Source: Ilex aquifolium
Lineage: Eukaryota; Streptophyta; Magnoliopsida; Aquifoliales; Aquifoliaceae
NCBI GenBank assembly: GCA_951799425.1
Contig: OX637395.1
Location: 41,903,173-41,967,172 of the forward strand
DNA: 64,000 nt
Direction: 5' to 3'
Shown here in pieces: positions 1 through 54,358 of the stretch; position 1 is the first letter of the stretch; each line of letters opens with the position of its first letter. The notes below the pieces were generated by a model. The model did no database searches, was not told where the DNA came from, and was given only the letters and a program-made list of their open reading frames with translations. The translations under genes and the position numbers were made by a program.

Positions 1-1250
1 AGGGGTTTCAACATTTTTGGGTAAGGGTTCCAACTTTTATGGGTGGGGGTTTCAACTTTTTTGGGTAGGGGTTTCAACATTTTTGGGTAAGGGTTCCAAC
101 TTTTATGGGTGGGGGTTTCAACTTTTTTGGGTAGGGGTTCTAACTCTTAGGGGAGGGGTTCTAACTTTTATGGGTGGGGGTTTCAACTTTTTTGGGTAGG
201 GGTTCCAACTTTTATGGGTGGGGGTTTCAACTTATTTGGAGAAGGGTTTCAACTTTTATGGGTTATAGTTCCAACTCTTTTGGTAGGGGTTCCAACTCTT
301 GAGGGGAGGGGTTCCAACATTTTTGAGTACGGGTTCCAACTTTTGTGGGTGGAGGTTTCAACTTTTTTGGATAGTGGTTCCAACTCTTGAGGGGAGGGGT
401 TCCAACATTTTTGGGTACGGGTTCCAACTTTTATGGGTGGGAGTTTCAACTTTTTGGGTAGTGGTTCCAACTCTTGAGGGGAGGGGTTCCAACATTTTTG
501 GGTAAGGGTTCCAACTTTTATGGGTGGGGGTTTCAACTTTTTTGGGTAGGGGTTCCAACTCTTAGTGGAGGGGTTCCAACTTTTTTGGGTAGGGGTTTCA
601 ACATTTTTGGATAATGGTTCCAACTTTTATGGGTGGGGGTTTCAACTTTTTTGGGTAGGGGTTTCAACATTTTTGGGTAGGGGTTTCAACATTTTTGGGT
701 AAGGGTTCCAACTTTTATGGGTGTGGTTCAACTTTTTTGGGTAGGGGTTCCAACTCTTAGGGGAGGGGTTCCAACTTTTTTGGGTAGGAGTTTCAACATT
801 TTTGGGTGGGGGTTTCAACATTTTTGGGTAAGGGTTCCAACTTTTATGGGTGGGGGTTTCAACTTTTTTGGGTAGGGGTTTCAACATTTTTGGGTAAGGG
901 TTCCAACTTTTATGGGTGGGGGTTTCAACTTTTTTGGGTATGGGTTCCAACTCTTAGGGGAGGGGTTCCAACTTTTATGGGTGGGGGTTTCAACTTTTTT
1001 GGGTAGGGGTTCCAACTTTTATGGGTGGGGGTTTCAACTTATTTGGAGAAGGGTTTCAACTTTTATGGGTTATAGTTCCAACTCTTTTGGTAGGGGTTCC
1101 AACTCTTGAGGGGAGGGGTTCCAACATTTTTGGGTACGGGTTCCAACTTTTATGGGTGGGGGTTTCAACTTTTTTGGGTAGGGGTTCCAACTCTTGGGGG
1201 AGTGGATCCAACTTTTGTGGGAGGGGTTTCAACTGTTTGGGGGGGGTAAG
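1..1250. repeat. 22-bp-unit satellite/minisatellite array, open at the left edge
   Basis: The stretch is built from units of about 22 bp whose core reads GGGTTYCAACTTTTWTGGGT, usually paired as 44-bp dimers (one half with TTTTATGGGTG, the other with TTTTTTGGGTA). Variant units carry CAACTCTTRGGGGA or CAACATTTTTGGGT. A longer period exists: the variant run with GGAGAAGGGTTTCAAC followed by GGTTATAGTTCCAACTC appears near 239 and again near 1046, about 807 bp apart. Open frames across it only reflect the repeat and encode monotonous peptides. The array starts outside the window and decays near 1200-1250. Confidence 0.95.
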
Positions 1251-1935: not shown

Positions 1936-2232
1936 GTAGCTTTTTCCCATCACATCTATCTATTATTTATTTTTTCAATTTTTGTGTACCAAGTTCACAC
2001 ATATATATAGGAATCAACGAACAAGTACACTCATTGGCTCCGTTCTTATTTTACAGACGCCTTCTTAGACCAAACGAGCACAAGGCAGCTCACAGGTACG
2101 GTAATTCAAATCTAATTTTCCGATCAAATTCACTCGTCAGCTTTGGTGAATTCGAACTTAGAATAGATCCGTAATTGAATGATTCATTCGGTTTTTTTTT
2201 TTTGTGCGAAACAACAGAGTGAGTAGTGAAGA

Positions 2233-2427
2233 ATGGGAAGTTTGAAGGCGATTTTGAAGCATCCGGATGATTTCTATCCGATGTTGAAGCTGAAGATGGC
2301 CGCACGGCACGCGGAGAGGCAAATCCCACCGGAACCACACTGGGCGTTCTGTTATACCATGCTCCACAAGGTTTCTCGCAGTTTCGCTCTCGTCATTCAA
2401 CAGCTCGGCACCGAGCTCCGCAACGCT
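2233..2427 (+). pseudogene. SQS: Squalene synthase, exon 1 only (3'-truncated gene fragment)
   Basis: Squalene synthase (farnesyl-diphosphate farnesyltransferase) joins two farnesyl diphosphates into squalene on the ER, the first committed step to sterols. The 65 residues begin [20 protein letters not shown] and continue with the family's [15 protein letters not shown] and [20 protein letters not shown] stretches, which match the N-terminus of plant enzymes almost residue for residue. The reading frame is intact and ends in front of a perfect donor, GTGAGT at 2428, at the usual exon 1 boundary. The next exon (VCIFYLVLRALDTVEDD in relatives) and all catalytic DxxED regions are absent from the + strand of the window; about 45 bp further on transposon-like DNA starts. 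I infer a real former gene cut off by a deletion. Alternatives are a partial duplication or a misassembly. No active enzyme can come from this copy. Confidence 0.9.
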
Positions 2428-2475
2428 GTGAGTCCCGATTCTCCGCAACGCTGTGAGTCCCGCAACGCTGTGCAA
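2413..2475 (+). repeat. Triplicated word at the SQS splice donor
   Basis: The word CCGCAACGCTGTGAGTCCC, spanning the end of exon 1 and its donor, is repeated directly at about 2441-2459 and partly again at about 2460-2473, where it runs into the inverted-repeat element. The duplicated donors suggest slippage or repair synthesis at a broken end. Confidence 0.8.
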
Positions 2476-3155
2476 CTTGGACGGGCTAACCCGAAAAATG
2501 CAGTGCTTGAGTTGAGTTTTTTAAAACTTGGCTTGGTCTTGCGCTAAAAATCCTCAACCTGAATTGAATTCGGGTTGAGGCTTCAGGTTCACAATTCAAC
2601 CCGAGCCCAGATCAAATTACTAAAAATTGGGTTCAACCCAATTTGAACCCGAGTTCTTATTTAAGCATTAACAAATAATGAGTTTTATTTAAGTATTTAA
2701 AAAATATATATAAAGGGCTACACAATAAAATAATATGTATTACCTACATTCATCAACAACCTTTTATAGCATTAGAGGGAGTGCAAACTCCCTTGTTCAA
2801 CCGATGAGGGATGGTGACTAAAGAACAAAAGAAGATGTTTTAAGTTAGAATCCCACATTGGTTGCAAACAAAAAAGTCTCTTCCCCCTCTTGTATATAAA
2901 GAAGGCAAACACAATGTGGCTTTAATGGGCTTGATTTTCATCGGGTCTATGTGAGTTTAATAAAAGGGTTAACGGAATTTACATTTTGGAACCCGAATTT
3001 AACCCAAAAATTGAACCCGATTTAATAACTTGGGCTCAACCAAGCCCGAGCCCGAACAGGCAATACTCGGGTTGAGGTCGGGCTCGGATTGGGCTTGGGT
3101 TGAGAGTTCTATAACTTGGGTTGGCCTCTCAACACGTCCAAGTTGCAGCCCTAAT
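2472..3155. mobile_element. hAT-like non-autonomous DNA element filling the SQS/SH3P2 junction
   Basis: The two ends are inverted copies: TGCAACTTGGACGGGCTAAC at the left, and on the minus strand at the right GCTGCAACTTGGACG followed by a short spacer and GGCCAACCC. The subterminal parts are rich in inverted words such as AACCCGAG, AACCCGA and GGTTGAG. No transposase frame is visible. A TATATAAAG box and CCACATTGGTTGC at about 2850-2905 suggest a second small element nested inside. Clear target duplications were not found. The hAT assignment is a guess from the ends. Confidence 0.55.
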
Positions 3156-3241
3156 TCAAAGTGAAAATGCTTGAAAACTTGACACACAACCGAGTATCAT
3201 TGAGTGCAGCTGTAGAAGAGTTGGGTCCAAGATTGACTAAC

Positions 3242-6200
3242 CTTTCGAACAACAACACAGTCACCAGTCGACAAAGTAAGCTCTACGTCAGATTCAGCTT
3301 GATATGAGTACAACGCCTGCAACAAAATGCAGCAAGCAATGCACAAGAATAAGAAAACAATTAAACAGCCAGCATAAACATCAATGCAATTTATCATTCC
3401 AATACAAAGTAGAACAGGTATTATGATTCCTTACTTCTCCTAAAAAGTAACCCATGCTGTCGGTTGATCCATTATGCAATGGAGAAGTAAATACACCATT
3501 TACTTCTTCATACGATGGAGGTGGAGGCATACTATCCGTACTCGGACTAGGAGCTGCTTCAATTTGTTGGCGCTCCGATATCATCTGTCAATGACAAAGA
3601 AACATAGCATATCATCAGGGAAAGGAAAAAAATATATGAAATCAAGATAACCTGTAGATCCAACTGCAACAGGTAAATAAATGTCATGCAATGAAAGGTC
3701 TTGGTAACATTATACATACCTCACCTTCTAGCCGATCAAGTATCTCCAGTATTCTCTGATGGTAAGCACGTTCTGATTCAACCTTCAATACAGAAGATAG
3801 AATGCCTAAATTTTCTTTATGAAAAGTGCATTTAACTCTATTAGATCAAGAGGTCAGATTACATTACCATGGAAATAAGTCGCTGGAGAGTCAACCGTTG
3901 TTGCTGAGCTTCAACTGCTGTCATTGCTGCAGCAGCCTCCTTCCCCAATATTGCCACGTTCGATTTCAGATCCTGTAGCTTTGCTTCTGCTGCTTCAAGT
4001 TTGAAAGCCATGTCAGGATTGCCTGTTCCTTCTCTCAATTTTGCTTGGCGTTTGGAAACTTCAATAGCCTATCTAGGTTTAAGAGCAAATGCATTTACAA
4101 CAGGTAGAAGAATATGCATCCCATTAACACAGTGAAAAAAGGGATTAAAATACCTGAGCTTCAGCTTCCTGTCTCATTCTATCATATCGTTGAGCAAGAT
4201 GTCGAGCATCTTCCAATGGAGCTCCCATTACCATTGCTCTTAATGGTTCAGCAACCTGGTAATGAGATATCAAGCATCAAACTAAGCACTGATCTGATAA
4301 GGCCAGCACATGGTAGAAAGGACAAGCAAAAGAATGCATAAAAAACAGAGCAAAATCAAATCCCTCTTGATTAATATTTGAATCTAGCAGAATTTAAAGA
4401 ACATATTATACACCTAAAACGGGAACAAGTACTATTATAAACATGATAGGAAAAATTTTACTGCTTATGTGCCACCATGATAATCCACAACAAAAATGCT
4501 AGCAATTTGGATATTAAATGCATGATATTGTCCGAAAAGTGTCCACAAGAAATATAAACCTCTAACCAACTGTTTTCTCAATAGATTGACTTTTAAAATA
4601 AAAGGAATTCATATTAGATATTTTACAATGTCTTGAAAATCCTATCGTCATTAGTTTTTTTAATTCCTTTTTCCTTATGGGGGAAATAGTAAAATATTTT
4701 TATTACTGATAGTTCAGTCAAACTGCACGATGAGCAAACCATGTTACTTATTCAGGCAACGCTTACAAGCAAAATGATTCCATGCCTTACTCAGAATATC
4801 ATCCCTTGTCCAAATTTTGACGAACAGAATGCATCTCATTCCCAATTTTTAGCTGTCTTGGTATGGTGAAGTCCTATAGTATCACATTATGGCCCAGCTC
4901 TCTTGTCTTTGTCATCGATAATCATCCCAAATCTTGAATTTGTGTAATGTGCCCAATTCCACTTTTCTTCTACCTATTTAAGATTGCCCACAAATATTCT
5001 GTACTTTTACCTTTGATTATGCACATATCACAAAGTTTCACCTTATCTAGCCAAAGCAGCAGACATGGTAACTGGCAGTAAGCACAACAAAGCCCATGGT
5101 TGAAATTGTGAGTGTATCCCTTCCTCCTATCCCCTCCCAATGAAAAAAAAAAAACTGTAAAAACAAAGAAACACCAAAATGATTTCAACTCAACTCAACT
5201 CAACATAGTTTTGACCAAACTATTTGGGGTCGGGAACATAGATCTTATTTCGCTATTGTTCTATGAAGGGCCATATTTTCTATTAAACCATAGGCTATCA
5301 TAGTTCATATCATTTTTTTTTTAACAATCTCAATGTAAATTCCGGTTCTCCACTACCCCTGAAATTACGGTCAATAGGCATCCTATCACTCTTCCCTACT
5401 AGTGTGGTATATAGTCTTCTATAAATATGTTTAAACCAAGATATTCAGAAGGATTTATCTCTGCAGAATGCCTTCTATAGTTTATTTACCGGCTATACAA
5501 TAATTCCACTCACCACCCTCATTCTAAAACACATATGTCTACGCAATGTTGTGATGTGCAAAAGTGTGTCTTGGTCATGATACCTAATCTTAGGGGCATC
5601 GTACATATTGGTAAAAGAACAAAAACACATTATTATCAGACCTGTGTGCCAAATGATTTCAATAAATTCCCACGCTCCTTCTCCATCTGAGCACGAGCTC
5701 TACCAAAACTCAATGCAGCTTTTGATAATATACTACCGCTGGTACATGTATTCTCAACTCCATATTTCCTGCCATCTTCTGACAACTTAGTCCCTGATGA
5801 AAAAGTTGTACATAGAAAATTAGTGTCAACACCTTTGACATTGAGTCAAACCCGAATATTAAAAGCTGACATCACAGCTTCAGTATATCACCTATTTCAA
5901 CTTGTTTGGACCCAGTAACAATGTAACCTTCTACACCACGAACAATATCCCTTTGAAAATGCTGAAAAATAAAAGTAAACTTTTGTGAGCCAAGGAAGAA
6001 CACAAGTAACTTCAGAAATAAAACAGAATTCAAAAGATTGAGCAAAATAGTCCTAAGCAGATCTACAAGAGCAAACAAGTTTCAAAAGTTGGGCCATTGC
6101 TCAATGAAGGGATAAAGGTTCTCCTCAAATTGAATCTGTTTTAACAGTAAAGAAAAAGAAAGGAAAGAGAGAGTTCCAAAGCACAGGACTATTTGCAACC

Positions 6201-7232
6201 TTGGCAGCACGTGTTGATATGTAAAGCTTCTCAAGTTTTTGATGCTGCTGGAGTTCAGCTTCATCAGTAACATTATCTGAACCTCCATATCCCCCACCCC
6301 CAAACTGCTTGAGGACAGCCTGAAATTTAACCAAATGATGATAAGCAGTGTGTCTTCAGTTAATCATAGATAAATCATAAATGACATTGTTGATAAGAAA
6401 GTAAAGAAGCAACAGTGGAGATAAACTCTGATCGAAGCTGAAACTACGTACATATCATTGAATGGTCCAAATTCAGTATGCACACTATCTATCTAAATTG
6501 TAAACCCTACCAAGCAACATTAACTGAAAATGAATCCAATTCTTCCATTCACTTAATCAACACCTTAAATTTGGTTGTTATCTTCACCACGAACATAAAT
6601 AAAACAGTATTCCACCAACATAACAGATCCACGTATCTTAACCACCATTAAATTAGCATTGCTTTACATTGTCACCATCAAATATTCATATACACATTCT
6701 CCGTTAGAAAATTCAAATGCATTAGACATTGATCAAACAATTACTATCACAGTGATTAAAGACTAATCTAAAAGTGACCTAATGGAAAAAAAATAAGCAT
6801 TCTCCGTTAGAAAATTCAAATGCACTAGAAATTGATCAAACAATTACTATCACAGTGATTAAAGAATAATCTAAAAGTGACCTAAACGAAAAAAAAGACA
6901 CACACAAGCGCACAGACACACAAACACACTAATTTTCATCGAAATCTACGCAACTGAATAACATTGCCACCAAAAGAATAGAAAACATTAAAGCTGTTTC
7001 AGGAATTGTTTATATTCAAATCTAGGATACACGGAACGAATAAATCGACCACGAACTGAGCAAATTTAAGGATTGACATAAGGACTGAATCACATAACAA
7101 TCAAAATTTTCATCGATCTCTGCCTTGGCCGAATAAGAGAAAATACACATTGATCCACCAAAGGTTTGTGCAGATCCAATCCGAGTTCATACGAATGCGT
7201 ACGAGTATACACGCAATCAATTTTACACACAT

Positions 7233-7266
<34 letters not shown>

Positions 7267-7326
7267 CTGTTGTTGCCTCGCGACCTGTTCCCTGAGTCTC
7301 GTGGCTTGTTTCCTGATTGCTTCCAT
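3242..7326 (-). CDS. SH3P2: SH3P2-type BAR/SH3 domain protein, last exon missing
   Basis: Plant SH3P proteins bind membranes with a BAR domain and act in clathrin-vesicle, ubiquitin/ESCRT and autophagosome traffic. Exons read on the minus strand are 7267-7326, 6200-6319, 5892-5961, 5642-5793, 4154-4255, 3868-4068, 3720-3782, 3435-3584 and 3242-3316, all with GT/AG borders and matching phases (993 nt, 331 codons). The start is MEAIRKQATRLREQVARQQQ. The BAR coiled-coil region covers about residues 20-255 (EKLYISTRAAK, HFQRDIVRGVEGYIVTGSKQ, RAQMEKERGNL, LAQRYDRMRQEAEAQ), then comes a proline-rich linker (SMPPPPSYEEVNGVF) and the first half of an SH3 domain (ALYSYQAESDVELTLSTGD). The expected last exon, about 38 residues with GWAEGECKG and GWFPYGYIERRERVL in relatives, is not in the window. 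The donor GTTAGT after 3242 has no partner; read-through would add 14 unrelated residues, stopping at 3197. Full family members are about 368 aa, so only the SH3 end is lost. Confidence 0.88.
5180..5600 (-). mobile_element. 3' end of an RTE-like non-LTR element in SH3P2 intron 4
   Basis: On the + strand the piece starts with repeated CAACT units (TTCAACTCAACTCAACTC) followed by CCAAACTATTTGGGGTCGGG and GGGCCATATTTTCTATTAAA. This is close to a word order common at the 3' ends of plant RTE-type LINEs (TTGAG tail, then CCCCAACTAGTTTGG on the element strand). The element strand is minus, its tail lies at the left, and it is 5'-truncated; the right limit is uncertain. No coding part is recognisable. 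Confidence 0.5.
6695..6895. repeat. 103-bp tandem duplication in SH3P2 intron 1
   Basis: Two adjacent copies start with CATTCTCCGTTAGAAAATTC at 6695 and 6798 and both contain GATCAAACAATTACTATCAC. They differ at only a few positions, so the duplication is recent relative to neighbouring repeats. Confidence 0.9.
7236..7263. repeat. (GA)n microsatellite touching the SH3P2 intron 1 donor
   Basis: About 14 GA units abut the first coding exon. On the gene strand intron 1 starts GTAC and goes straight into (TC)n, so the polypyrimidine repeat lies within 4 nt of the 5' splice site. Confidence 0.95.
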
Positions 7327-11612: not shown

Positions 11613-12312
11613 CTAGTTATTATCTGTGCCTGAAGGCACAAAATAATAAAAAATAATAAACAATAAACATATTTTTATTCATATCCAAAATCAAATCACA
11701 AACATAGAGAAGATATAAAAGAATTTAAGCATCAATTTGTAGTGGGGGTGAGAGGTGGTGGGCGGCAGTGGTGGTGGTAAGAGACGGTGATGGTTGTGGT
11801 GGGTGACAGTGACCGTGGTGGGGGTGGTTATGGTGGTGGCGGAGGCGGAGGCGGCAGCGATGGCGGTGGCGGTGGTGGTGGTGGTAGTGGTGGCGGTGGT
11901 GGAGGTGGCGGTAGTGGCGACGACGGTGGCAACAACGATGATGGGGGGGTGGCGGTGGAGGCGATGGTGGTGGTAAGGGCGGTAGTGGCAACGACGACGA
12001 TGGTAGTTGTGGTGGTTGTGGTGGCGGTGGTAGTGGCGGTGGTGGCGGCGGTGGTAGAGGTAGTAGTGGGGCGGTTTCAAACACTATATTTTTTTTAAAA
12101 GTATTTATGAAAAATAATTTCTAGAAAGTACTTTTAAAAAGTTATTCCAAACACACCCTTAAGGTGCCTATTTTTCCTCTTAAATTTAGGGTGTTAATAT
12201 TAACCGTTAGATTAACTTTAAAGTAAAATTTAAAGTGATCTCAACCGCGAATAACAAAAGTCATTTTGTTTATCTTTTGAAATTTGAATTGTAAACTACT
12301 TTATTTTATAGA
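11613..12312 (-). mobile_element. Small non-autonomous Helitron with GGT-repeat core, copy A
   Basis: Read on the minus strand the element starts TCTATAAAATAAAGTAG and ends with a hairpin (GTGCCTTCAGGCAC, preceded by T) and ACTAG, flanked by host A on the left and T on the right, as Helitrons are. The core at about 11743-12070 is an imperfect (GGTGGY)n minisatellite. No helicase or replicase is encoded. The proline- or glycine-rich frames across the core exist in several phases and on both strands and are not genes. Confidence 0.85.
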
Positions 12313-12440
12313 TATTCTTGCCTAATGACTATCATACAACCTCACAAAATTGATTTATTAGCTGTACTTTGACGTGACATTGTGTGCGAAAGAAAGTACG
12401 GTGTCAGAAACAAAACACGGTAATTAATCATGAATACTTT

Positions 12441-19826: not shown

Positions 19827-20495
19827 CGTGTTGGAATACCAAAATATAATACGAATCGTTAACACTACACGAACATGATACCAAATTAGAGGGTTTTGGT
19901 CTTCCTTAAACGATTCGTTTCATAAACGAGTGGACTCAATATAATACAATTAATAAATGAATCGGACATGAACGAAACAAAAATATTAAATAAGACCTTA
20001 ATAATATTTACTATAATAATATATTACTTTTTTTTTTTGTTATTTGAGATGCAAAAATATGAATTTAATTTTTACATTAATCGTGATTGAGTTTGGAGAC
20101 CGTGTATTAATTTTGTTATTTGGTGAAGACAAGCGAAAATAAAATTGACTTTATTTCGTTAGCAAATTTATTTTATTTACATCAAATGCAAGTAAAAATA
20201 TAAGTATGTTGAATTCATTAGAATAAATATTGTGTGGTTAAAGATTAAAGAGAAATAGAGTTAATTATGTCTAAATGACAAATTATTCAAAGATAAATTA
20301 TGATTATAGTTTGGTTTTGAATAACGAGTTACTTCTACTCATCATTTTCTTGTGATTTTGTGCATCGTAAACCTCTAATTAAGCAACAAATCAAACCCAA
20401 ATCAAAGGGTCTCGATTTTAACCTAAGGAAAAAGTTACAACTCGTAACAATTAGGTGATAGACAATTAATTGACGAATTGATTGTGATTCTAAAA

Positions 20496-21098
20496 TGATG
20501 GGTCAAGTCCAAGGGCTCAACTCATGTTATAAACCCAATTTGAATTAATTGTTCAACTCCAAGAGATCCAACAAGTCCAGCCCAAAGTAGTCCACGCCCG
20601 GTCAAGCTCATCAGGTTCGAGGAGGTACATCATCAGGGGAGTATGCAGGGTCATCCAAGAGTTTCATCCACGTCGCCTTGGAAAGAGTCAACCCCCACGT
20701 CATCCTTTGATCGAATCCTATGGAGAGCACCGTAACTGCCTCATCGGTTGAGAAGAGGGCGCCAGCTCCACTATATTAGCCACTTAGTGACTATTAACTC
20801 GCTCAAATTTGTTACGAGGCGACTATAAATTGTAAGCCTCGCCAACACTTGGGGGGCATATCACACTCAGTCGAGCACAACTCTCCCATCTCTCTCAACT
20901 TGTAATTCCCTGCTCTCCCTACACACTTGAAGTAATAAAATACCTAGCGACCCTAGCCATTCAAAGTGGACGTAGGTCACGTTGACCGAACTACTATAAA
21001 TCATTGTCTTGCCTATGTTTCCAACCCTCTCTAATTCACTACTACATTTATTACTGTTTACTTGACAGGTGGTGTACAAACCAATTTGTGCATCATCA
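20496..21098. mobile_element. Solo LTR, Gypsy-like
   Basis: A 603-bp fossil LTR begins TGATGGGTCAAG and ends TGTGCATCATCA (inverted TGATG/CATCA termini) and is flanked by the exact 5-bp repeat TAAAA at 20491-20495 and 21099-21103. Inside are a TATAAAT box, an AATAAAA signal and a GTGGACGTAGGTCACGTTGACC stretch of the kind seen near the 3' ends of plant Gypsy LTRs. No internal region is present, so it looks like the product of LTR-LTR recombination. The clean termini suggest moderate age. Confidence 0.85.
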
Positions 21099-22881: not shown

Positions 22882-23123
22882 CTATATTTCCCCACCATTC
22901 ATTCACTTAAATATCGGAAGCACTACGGTGGAAAAATTTTGGGGACCCTCTTGGCCATGTTTTTGGTCTTGTATATTCACAAGTGGTCCCATTAATTGCA
23001 TCATCCCTAGTTGCTTAGAGTTTTCCCCCTCTAGAAAGTATCAGAAAATTGTGCAATGAGAGAAACCTGAGAACTTAAATTATATGAGAGACATGTGAAA
23101 TATTGAGCGCATAGAGTCATGAC

Positions 23124-23154
<31 letters not shown>

Positions 23155-50700: not shown

Positions 50701-53700
50701 GACCTACTAATCTGTGCTCAAAATCACATCACATACCAATGAAAAAACTAAAATGAATGTGAACCAGCATAAATGTAATGGCCAATATTTCAGTTAATAT
50801 GTTGTAGTGCTGATCAAGGCCATGCGAATGGGCAGGTGTAACCATAATGTAACGTGGAAAAAAGTAAGAATAAATGTCACACAGATCAAGGAAAAAATTA
50901 TCATTTCTTGCATCTCAACAATGAGAATCAACCATGCCCCCTTGCTTTCCCCAAACAGAAAAGGATAGGATGCCGCACATACCTCTTTGTTTCCCAGCTC
51001 CTTGCTCTCAATTAACATGACAGTTTTCATGCAAGTCTCACAAAAGCCTTTGTTTCCTCTAACACACAAGATAACAGCATCTTTAATGCACCCCTTGCAC
51101 AATGAAAATGTACATGTATAACACATATAGTGGGCATTCTTCTCACAAATGCTACAAAGATGCCAGCCTGAAATACAAGTAAGTAATACAGTTAAACCAA
51201 AATAATCCAAGACGAATGAAAATAGGAAAAGCTCACACAACCTTATAGTAAAGATAATGACTGCAAAGAAACTAGAATGTTTGTAATGCCACATCAAAGT
51301 ATTAAGAACCAACTGTATATGACAACAATAATAAGGGGCACTATCAGCAAAATAGATTTAAACTATTTCCTAAACACTCAAAAGTTATTAGATAATAAAT
51401 GCAGATTTCTGCAGAACTTGTCATTATATGTCAACAATGCAATCCCTTTGGAAGAAGAGAAGCAGTTGTGAGGAGAAGATAAGTTGCAAACGGTTAGAAT
51501 TTGACCGCAGCCGAACTAATTGTAAGGAGGCCTACAGAATTCCCTTCTCTATTTTCATCAGTATAGCCAAAGGTTTCAGCCAAATGGAAGGGAGGGAAAC
51601 AAATTCATATCCCAAGTTTGTAATATTTTTAAATTTGAAAATTTTGTACCTTCAATGATATGCTTAAACATCCAGCTGATTGTTTGTAAATTTGAGGCAA
51701 ACGTCTTGGGTGCCCGAAATAACCAGAGAAATTTTTTTATGGTAATCTTTCCTTTGGAATATTTATTTAAATCTCTCCATTATTCATCTCTTTTCTTTTC
51801 TTTTTTTCCTTTTTTTTTTGCTTATTTACAAAAAAGAATATTTCATTAAATGGCAATGCCAACAAATTCTAGTTTTGACACAAATGGAAAGCCCCAATAA
51901 AAGAACACAATTGCCTTAACCCCAAAGATTGGCCTCCACATGCTTCCCCCTTGGTGAATTGAGAGCAATACAAATACATGAACAAAGTGAGAGTCAATGA
52001 TAGGTATCCAAAGTGCAATCAGGCAAGGCAGCTTCTCCATTTTGTCTGTGGCAATATGTTTCTCCTGGTATAATTGTCACAGATACAACTGCAATGACCT
52101 TCAAGGGCCCAACAATTTTTTGTTCAAAAAAAGTCTCAAACGTATGTCTACAAAGTACAAATGAAAATGTAAGTCAGCATACTGCAAACATCTGCATGCC
52201 CTCTTCTGATATTTACTCTACTTGGATGACTGAATTACATACAAAAGCCCTGAAATTTGTTTGGATATTAACAATCAATCATCTTAAGGATGATTTAAGT
52301 CCTACTGGAGGGCAGGCATCAACTTAAACAGCTTGTCAATCACAAAACTGTTGGGCATGCAGGTTCTGCACTGGGACTCCCCATTCCTCAGCACCAGTCA
52401 ATGCCTGCAAGTTTAGCTCCTGTACTTCAATCGTTTAATAAAAAGAAAATCAAAGATAAAAAGTTTGGTGAATACAGAAAAAGATCCCACTAAACCACAA
52501 TGAGTGTCATGTTTTGAAGGTGTTGCATAGTAGTAAATCATCAATCCCTGCTAAAGCTTGATTACTTCGTTTAAAAGATATAAAACAAGATAGGACAAAA
52601 CATGCAGGAGAAAGAGTGGGACTCACCACAATTCCAACGGCCCTTAGCTTGAAAGAATGCCTCATCACGATTAACACAAAAAGGATGATACGCTTTGGGG
52701 CAACCCCTAAAGTCTCAGTAACAAAAACCATTTAGCAATAATCCCAACATTAGCATAAATGCATCTACCAAAAAACTCAATTTCAATGATCTAAAAATTC
52801 AATTTTACAGTCACCAAACTCACCGGCGGTCACACAGCACAAGGTCACCTCCGTCAAAGCAAATGAAACAAACATCCTCTCCCACCGTCTTCCGCTGTGG
52901 AGCTCTAGCTGTTATCTTCGCTGGACCCTTAGAGTGCCTCCCTCTCTTGCGCTTCCCTCCAGCTCCTTTCCATGACTCCCCCACATCCATTTCCGTCTCC
53001 ATTGCAGTGTCCGCATCCGGAATCTCCTCCTCTACTTCAGTCTCCGCAGCTGGAATCTCCTCTTCCGCCACCACATCTCCCTCATCTTGGTCAACAAGAT
53101 TTGAATCTTCAAACTCCTGAACAGATTCCCCTCCACTGCCCCTTCCCGCCTCAGCCTCGGTTTCTGTCTCCCTTTCGGAGTCTGCCATCATAGTATCCTT
53201 ATCAACTGCAGCATCATTCCTCACAATATTGTCTTTGGACGACTCAGTGACCTGTGTGGCCTCCGCCTCTATCTCTGTTTCCATTTTAGTGTCCAGCATT
53301 GGTGTGTCCTCTTTACACAACACCCCGTCATCACTGTTGTTGTCTTTGACTACAATCGATGGCTCGGTACCAACAAATGACGAATCATGTAACTCTGAAA
53401 GATGCTCTTCCCCACCGCCTTTTCCCGCTTCCACCTCCACCTTTGCCTCCATCTCCGTTTTAGTATCTACCTCAGGAACCAATTCATCATTGTCTTCATC
53501 ATCTTTCACACCAATTGGTGACTTGACACCAACATGTTGAGAAGCATCTAGCTCAGGCATATGCTTCTCTGCACCGTCTGCAGTCTCCTCTATCTTTGTC
53601 TCCATTCCAGTGTTCGCTACAGTAGTCTCTTCCGCTACCTTTTCGCTCTCTTTTGCGACAATCAATGACTCAGCGCTAAAGGCTGGCGAACTGCCACCAC

Positions 53701-54358
53701 TGCCTTTCGCCGCTTCCATATTCAGCTCCATTTTTATGTCCACTACTGGAGTCTCCTCCGCCACCACAACCTCCTCACAATTCTCAACAATTGGTGGCTC
53801 GGAACTGACGAGTCGTAAATCGTCTCGACCACCTATCGCCTCCTCTGTCTCCGTCTCAACCAAAATCTCCTCCGCCACCACCGCTTCCTTGTGTTTCGCA
53901 AGAATCGGAGACTCGGCACTAACGATTTGCGATTCGTCTCGACCACCAATCACCTCCTCTGTCTGCGTCTCAATTTCAGTGTTTACAACCGAAGCCTCCT
54001 CCACCACCACCGCTTCCTCATGTTTCGCAACCATCGGAGACTCGGCACTAACGACAAGCGAACCGTCCCGACCGCCAATCGCTCCCTCTATCTTCATCTC
54101 CATTCCAGTCTTTATCACCGGAGCCTCCTCCGCCACAGCCGCTTCCTCAACAATGGGCGATTTAACGCTAACAAGTTGCGAATTGAAAACTGAAACAGAA
54201 TCAGAAGCAGAGTCGCATTGTTCGGTGTTCATAAGCTCTTTGGTCCCTAAACATTCGTTTCCCAAAATTGATTCCTCCACTTCTTCAAGTGAGGGTGGTT
54301 TGTTAACAATATGTGAATTCTCTTCGTCGTCTTTCATGGAAACCAATTCAAAACCCAA
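38785..54358 (-). CDS. NERD: NERD: GW-repeat AGO-hook chromatin protein with PHD, SWIB, Plus3, GYF and CCCH domains
   Basis: NERD links histone H3 recognition and AGO2 binding to RNA-directed, RDR2-independent DNA methylation. Ten exons (minus): 52824-54358, 52627-52706, 50983-51167, 47181-48111, 46918-47045, 46509-46568, 46373-46423, 42155-42225, 41030-41184, 38785-40937. They sum to 5349 nt, 1782 aa; the Arabidopsis protein is about 1770 aa. Domains in order: acidic repeated N-terminus (1-490), PHD finger (CFICFDGGDLVLCDRRGC to CSICEKNAHYMC, about 505-600), SWIB (about 690-780, ASKELLEFVMNMKNGDRSVL), Plus3 (about 850-970), GYF (about 1225-1280, WRYQDPSGKVQGPFSI), a Pro/Gly region with GW/WG motifs (to about 1700) and a terminal CCCH finger (CPYHINGHCKKGAACDYLH). 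Nine phase-matched junctions; intron 8 is AT-AC. ATG at 54358 is used; a second ATG seven codons on is possible. No defect seen. Confidence 0.95.
39040..39400 (-). repeat. Tandem GW-motif repeat within NERD exon 10
   Basis: Five units of about 23-27 residues follow the plan GATVQGPxPGNxNPGWVxP: NPGWVVP, NPGWVAP, NQGWVAP, NSGWVPV and NPGWGAP. At DNA level the period is about 72-81 bp. Such GW/WG peptides are the Argonaute-binding hooks of the family. Confidence 0.9.
41185..42154 (-). other. U12-type (AT-AC) intron 8 of NERD
   Basis: On the gene strand the exon ends AGAAAGGA and the intron starts ATATCCTTG, the U12 5' splice signal. Near the other end TCCTTGAC (41195-41202) matches the U12 branch site, with its A 11 nt before the terminal CAC; the next exon starts GCTTAGAGAATG. 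This joins RRKE to LRECVEKLQLL, as in relatives, whereas no GT donor gives that frame. Confidence 0.85.
42557..44335 (+). mobile_element. Copia-type LTR element, broken, in NERD intron 7
   Basis: Two direct LTRs of about 220-240 bp begin TGTTAGTGTGTTACTTTCCT (42557 and about 44100) and share CACACAATWTTRTTTCATAC. A tRNA-Met-type primer site (TTGGTATCATAGC) follows the first, and a purine-rich tract (CAGAAGGAG) precedes the second. Inside, 42940-43600 is a degenerate array of CGGTTTAGTG/TTTTCA units, and the last part encodes only a polyprotein tail (DSLTKPLAQSTF). The element is largely deleted and not capable of movement alone. It lies opposite to the host gene; LTR divergence suggests it is old. 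Confidence 0.8.
48276..48535 (+). mobile_element. TRIM-like miniature LTR element in NERD intron 3
   Basis: Two related ends of about 85-95 bp share AAGTWTTTGGAGTAGAT and GGTTGTTTAACA. After the first comes ATAGTATCAGAGCACGAG, close to a tRNA-Met primer site. There is no coding region. It is a fossil of a terminal-repeat retrotransposon in miniature; boundaries are approximate. Confidence 0.55.
50118..50169. repeat. G-run and (GA)n in NERD intron 3
   Basis: About 30 mostly G bases are followed by (GA)9. On the transcript strand this is a C-rich and then TC-rich tract. Long G runs are also error-prone in assemblies. Confidence 0.9.
52880..54230 (-). repeat. Degenerate acidic repeats in NERD exon 1
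   Basis: At least six imperfect blocks of about 40-50 residues follow the plan VSxESPIVxKxEEAVVAEE, then a V.T.METE.EE stretch and GGRD or GKGGGE. They are strongly acidic and lack predicted catalytic features. Long antisense frames here are mirror effects of the repeat. Confidence 0.75.

Follow-up and report, generated by a model that had tools for sequence, protein, structure and literature searches.

A deletion scar joining the remains of squalene synthase and SH3P2 genes in Ilex aquifolium

We analysed a 64,000-nucleotide stretch of the Ilex aquifolium genome (C5:41903173-41967172, called the window) in an assembly of 800 Mb and 103 contigs. Near its left end the beginning of a squalene synthase gene (SQS) faces a gene that we take to be SH3P2; both names follow a preliminary description of the locus, and for the corresponding C6 proteins Pfam supports squalene/phytoene synthase and SH3. 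A search of the assembly with SQS exon 1 found two places, the window and C6:3110616-3110813, which are 88% identical. We took 40 kb of C6 around this match, turned it and then compared it with the window; positions in this stretch are given as c6rc. There are no N letters (0 in the window and 0 in the 40-kb C6 stretch). The features of the locus are as follows.

2009..2232, plus strand: SQS upstream region and 5' UTR, with similarity to the C6 copy retained
2233..2427, plus strand: SQS exon 1, 65 codons, open (MGSLKAILK...TELRNA)
2428..2440, plus strand: start of SQS intron 1 with intact donor GTGAGT; C6 homology stops at 2440-2443
2441..2472, plus strand: filler of about 32 bases repeated from SQS exon 1 and its donor
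2471..3153 (start 2470 or 2471), no strand assigned: non-autonomous hAT element, right end TTGCAGCCCTA intact
3154..3161, no strand assigned: ATTCAAAG, following TTGCAGCCCTA, the presumed surviving single copy of a target-site duplication
3154..3241, minus strand: remnant of the last SH3P2 intron with intact donor GTTAGT; unambiguous C6 homology from 3164
3242..7326, minus strand: SH3P2 exons 1-9, final exon missing and SH3 domain cut
7326-7267, 6319-6200, 5961-5892, 5793-5642, 4255-4154, minus strand: SH3P2 exons 1-5, borders set by eye
4068-3868, 3782-3720, 3584-3435, 3316-3242, minus strand: SH3P2 exons 6-9, borders set by eye

The preliminary description held that SQS ends after exon 1 with an intact donor, and this is what we find: the exon is open, GTGAGT stands at 2428 and no later exon is present on C5. 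Positions 2009-2443 match c6rc 11981-12398 at 80% identity (blastn), and 2009-2430 used as a query against the assembly has matches on C5 and C6 only. Between the two copies, exon 1 shows a Ks of 0.42 and a Ka of 0.07 over 65 codons. An exon 1 with its splice donor, homologous to the intact C6 copy, identifies the C5 remnant as part of a squalene synthase gene. With an Arabidopsis SQS probe, tblastn detected exon 1 alone in the window and nothing of SQS in the adjoining 10 kb on the left. At E <= 0.1 the C6 SQS protein has 12 matches in the assembly, of which 11 lie on C6. The remaining one, on C5, is exon 1; exons 2 onward are matched on C6 only, and the missing exons are found neither just beyond the left edge nor elsewhere in the assembly outside C6.

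In the C6 SQS, each of the 12 tabulated exons has a GT behind it, and AG stands before the 11 that come after exon 1; the exon 13 acceptor was read by eye, and the exact C-terminus is uncertain. Its 415-aa protein carries SQS_PSY (PF00494, Pfam) at residues 46-315 (E 2.8e-51). The C5 copy, with exon 1 only, has no Pfam match at E <= 0.001 and so lacks the PF00494 catalytic domain; read through past exon 1, it gives a 104-aa frame. The C5 SQS is dead. Judged by exon-wise matching, one full squalene synthase locus is present in the assembly. Five of the six PF00494 matches, on C2, C4 and C8, were considered as further squalene synthases and rejected: the C6 SQS protein does not match them at E <= 0.1, so they are other members of the superfamily, which we take to be probably phytoene synthases and one NDUFAF6-like gene.

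Two further observations concern the SQS copies. At exon-1 residues V2, L45, F53, D61 and S65 the C5 copy agrees with Arabidopsis SQS and the complete C6 SQS departs from it; at residues 5, 29 and 38 the reverse holds. Beside the C5 copy lies a 22-bp tandem array (window 1-1242 and leftwards) of 57 copies, also readable as a 131-bp unit, whose core word has 53 further occurrences in the 10 kb left of the window.

SH3P2 had been described as lacking only its final exon, with its last donor intact, and that description is accurate. Nine open exons give 331 codons without a stop, and GT follows all nine. When SH3P2 is searched against the assembly, 33 matches are found; the last exon is present on C6 and, in more distantly related copies, on C12 and C3, and has no match on C5. 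Pfam reports SH3_1 (1.7e-9), SH3_9 and SH3_2 in the C6 protein and no SH3 match in the C5 protein, which lacks a complete C-terminal SH3 domain. A BAR-type N-terminal region would be expected of an SH3P2-type protein; at E <= 0.001 Pfam reports no BAR domain in either copy.

Reading of the C5 gene past its last donor meets a stop after 14 codons. If the last intron is read through, the gene could, from its sequence, still encode a protein whose SH3 domain is cut to half. The 14-aa read-through tails of C5 (VSQSWTQLFYSCTQ; window 3200-3241) and C6 (VSKSWIHLFYSCTQ; last SH3P2 intron, c6rc about 23090-23134) are similar and stop at the same position; with copies this little diverged the agreement may be a coincidence, or it may reflect a retained-intron isoform. 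We considered decay of the C5 SH3P2 and rejected it: Ka/Ks against C6 is 0.116 over 331 codons with no stops, a ratio that averages both branches and carries little information on the time since the deletion. Ks between the two copies is 0.285. The C12 outgroup assigns 11 of their 23 amino acid differences to C5 and 5 to C6, leaving 7 ambiguous; the difference between 11 and 5 is not significant (p 0.21).

C6 keeps the full arrangement, a 13-exon SQS followed by a facing SH3P2 that includes the last exon. Intact copies elsewhere had been suggested as a possibility, and here both genes are complete. This intact convergent pair indicates that the unbroken order in this genome is convergent SQS and SH3P2. 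In Arabidopsis, SQS1/SQS2 (At4g34640, At4g34650) adjoin SH3P2 (At4g34660). Homology between the two segments ends at window 2443 / c6rc 12398 and resumes at 3164 / 23056, so that 10,657 bases on C6 correspond to 720 bases on C5. On C5 all the sequence that should separate SQS intron 1 from the last intron of SH3P2 is missing. The locus is confirmed as a real, well-preserved deletion scar, and the C6 comparison supports the earlier proposal that a single deletion took the 3' parts of both convergent neighbours. The junction, previously given as an 800-bp stretch, measures about 720 bases; its reported contents, a hAT-type element and copied donor words, are as described.

The left side of the junction consists of filler copied from the SQS side. 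Positions 2416-2437 are exactly repeated at 2441-2462, and 2417-2429 again at 2460-2472; on C6 the SQS donor word occurs in one copy. At each template switch the adjoining pieces share a few bases (CTC, CCG, and TG or GTG), and the first 3 and last 2-3 bases of the filler can also be assigned to its neighbours. A templated insertion with microhomology at the junction is the pattern of polymerase-theta end joining, and this enzyme would be the probable agent.

To the right of the filler lies the non-autonomous hAT element. Its inverted ends, 2471-2483 and 3135-3147, are complementary at 13 of 13 positions and form a terminal inverted repeat. The left end lacks its outermost 5-6 bp, which in relatives read TAGGG plus C or G. 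No target-site duplication is found at this copy, as the best match to ATTCAAAG in 2401-2482 reaches only 5/8, and we attribute its absence to loss of the left side. The element family is dispersed, with at least 50 matches. Among the 40 scored of 362 first-look candidates, the best-scoring relative is 79% identical over 554/705 bases, and shorter parts reach up to 83%.

We surveyed 30 loci, the C5 copy itself and 29 relatives, for target duplications around a similar element. Three relatives have 8/8 duplications (L016, L026, L031), three have 7/8 (L015, L029, L034) and one has 6/8 (L028), with outer ends like TAGGG and CCCTA. The 8-bp target-site duplication of the hAT family is therefore seen through the relatives. 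The remaining 22 of the 29, L027 among them, show no duplication of at least 6/8 round a similar element under the end pattern used; L027 has an 8/8 pair but was left out of the count because that pair encloses a dissimilar element. The ends and the duplications suggest that the element was mobilised by a hAT transposase. On C6, within the stretch lost on C5, c6rc 20260-20595 (between SQS and SH3P2) has ends that look hAT-like by eye, CAGGGGTGG ... CCAACCCTA.

What order of events produced this junction? The preliminary description did not decide whether the transposon came after the deletion or brought it about, a choice that can be refined: the evidence favours an element already present in the last SH3P2 intron. 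We think it probable that the locus is a fractionation scar in which the element came first, its left end became a deletion breakpoint and templated end joining sealed the gap. A non-autonomous hAT element would have inserted into the last SH3P2 intron on C5. A double-strand break would then have occurred at or beside its left end, perhaps through an aborted transposase cut; the cut is a guess by analogy, in keeping with known Ac/Ds flanking deletions (PMC3470690). The element would have lost 5-6 bp, and the opposite end would have been eroded until only the first few bases of SQS intron 1 remained. End joining of the polymerase-theta type, primed by microhomology, would then have sealed the break and left two copies of the SQS donor word as filler.

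Precedence of the element is most likely because the right terminus is whole, the left terminus is short, no left duplication exists and the filler derives from SQS; this order rests on parsimony, since two events suffice for all four features. The same final sequence would also fit a deletion that first joined both introns, followed by a hAT insertion whose left end was later damaged and filled, and small illegitimate-recombination deletions are reported in a study of maize fractionation (PMC2893956). That course needs a third event, one removing the left duplication, the left tip and the SQS intron beyond 2440-2443, and we judge it unlikely. One point counts against the element-first reading: when 3154-3163 is compared with the SH3P2 intron, 53% of 540 element 10-mers score as well, so ten bases are too few and intron homology right up to the element is unproven.

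The deletion might instead have arisen by alternative transposition or unequal recombination between a hAT copy in SQS intron 1 and another in the last SH3P2 intron, leaving one element. Ac/Ds ends do make flanking deletions, for example of 79 kb in rice (PMC3470690). Both routes should, however, leave the outer left terminus whole, and at this copy that terminus has lost 5-6 bp and has filler in front of it; blastn also finds no element match in the 40-kb C6 counterpart. We hold this origin to be distinctly improbable. It is very improbable that the scar is an assembly error or one haplotype of a heterozygote, with the deleted exons present in the plant beside it. The scar is known from one assembly, but there is no N, SQS exons past exon 1 occur on C6 only among the 103 contigs, and the junction carries repair-type filler. 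With the best relative 79% identical among the 40 of 362 candidates scored, collapse of a repeat is also unlikely. A stronger version of the element-first reading would have one transposase-triggered break at the hAT end cut both genes and the truncated C5 SH3P2 live on under selection, without a working SH3 domain and with the tail VSQSWTQLFYSCTQ; this combination seems rather unlikely to us.

A further, collinear gene pair supports C5 and C6 as duplicated segments. Subtilase genes at C5:42574930 (plus strand) and C6:2438358 (minus strand) lie 0.670 and 0.672 Mb from the respective SQS copies in matching orientation. The pair was noticed after the fact among 47 matches of a subtilase-like frame. 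Its members share 87% amino acid identity with a Ks of 0.49; in the C5 subtilase search the best other match is the C6 gene at 86%, and the next best reaches 59%. The SQS/SH3P2 and subtilase pairs thus match in order, orientation and distance, as fractionated homeologs do, and the C5-C6 anchors are limited to SQS, SH3P2 and this one subtilase.

Other neighbours are not shared. The window P450 (17194-19595; Pfam p450, CYP84 by eye; E <= 1e-60) and PHD-like gene (52820-54358; by eye, with no Pfam match; E <= 0.001) match C8 and not C6, and their sole other matches, at C8 8253105 and 8293275, are about 40 kb apart. Conversely, two neighbours on C6, named by eye, have no match on C5 near the locus (MATE-like at E <= 0.001, subtilase-like at E <= 1e-40), and the MATE-like exon next to the C6 copy is matched nowhere else at E <= 0.001. 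Our reading, drawn from few anchors, is that the missing neighbours may reflect loss on either side after the duplication together with an older duplicate on C8.

The processes involved are all known, and the locus is a clean but ordinary case of gene loss after duplication. It offers a base-by-base record of how a copy of an essential sterol-pathway gene was lost together with the end of its neighbour, most simply in one event, and a worked example in which the loss of a duplicated gene is tied to a transposon end and to templated end joining. The literature searches that paired SQS with SH3P2, paired hAT with flanking deletion, or looked for neighbouring-gene fusion gave no papers.

Known systems resemble the scar in part. 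As in maize fractionation, redundant sequence was lost from one homeolog by illegitimate joining while the other stayed whole; the 16 exon gaps in maize span 5-178 bp, and 10 of the 16 have direct repeats, whereas the present loss covers about 10.7 kb and two genes and involves a transposon end with templated filler (PMC2893956). Like the Ac/Ds flanking deletions, a hAT end is joined to a site kilobases away with the intervening DNA lost, but those deletions start from intact termini of closely linked elements, and here the terminus at the junction is cut back and adjoined by filler (PMC3470690). The element shares short TIRs, TAGGG / CCCTA ends and 8-bp target duplications with non-autonomous Ds-like hAT elements, and differs in the inner letters of its TIR (PMC3260210). 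In Arabidopsis, templated inserts matching DNA within 100 bp, together with microhomology, are described as characteristic of polymerase-theta repair (PMC5217109). The filler likewise matches DNA less than 100 bp from the break with a short overlap at each switch, although here the event is natural and the polymerase is suggested by the scar alone (PMC5217109).
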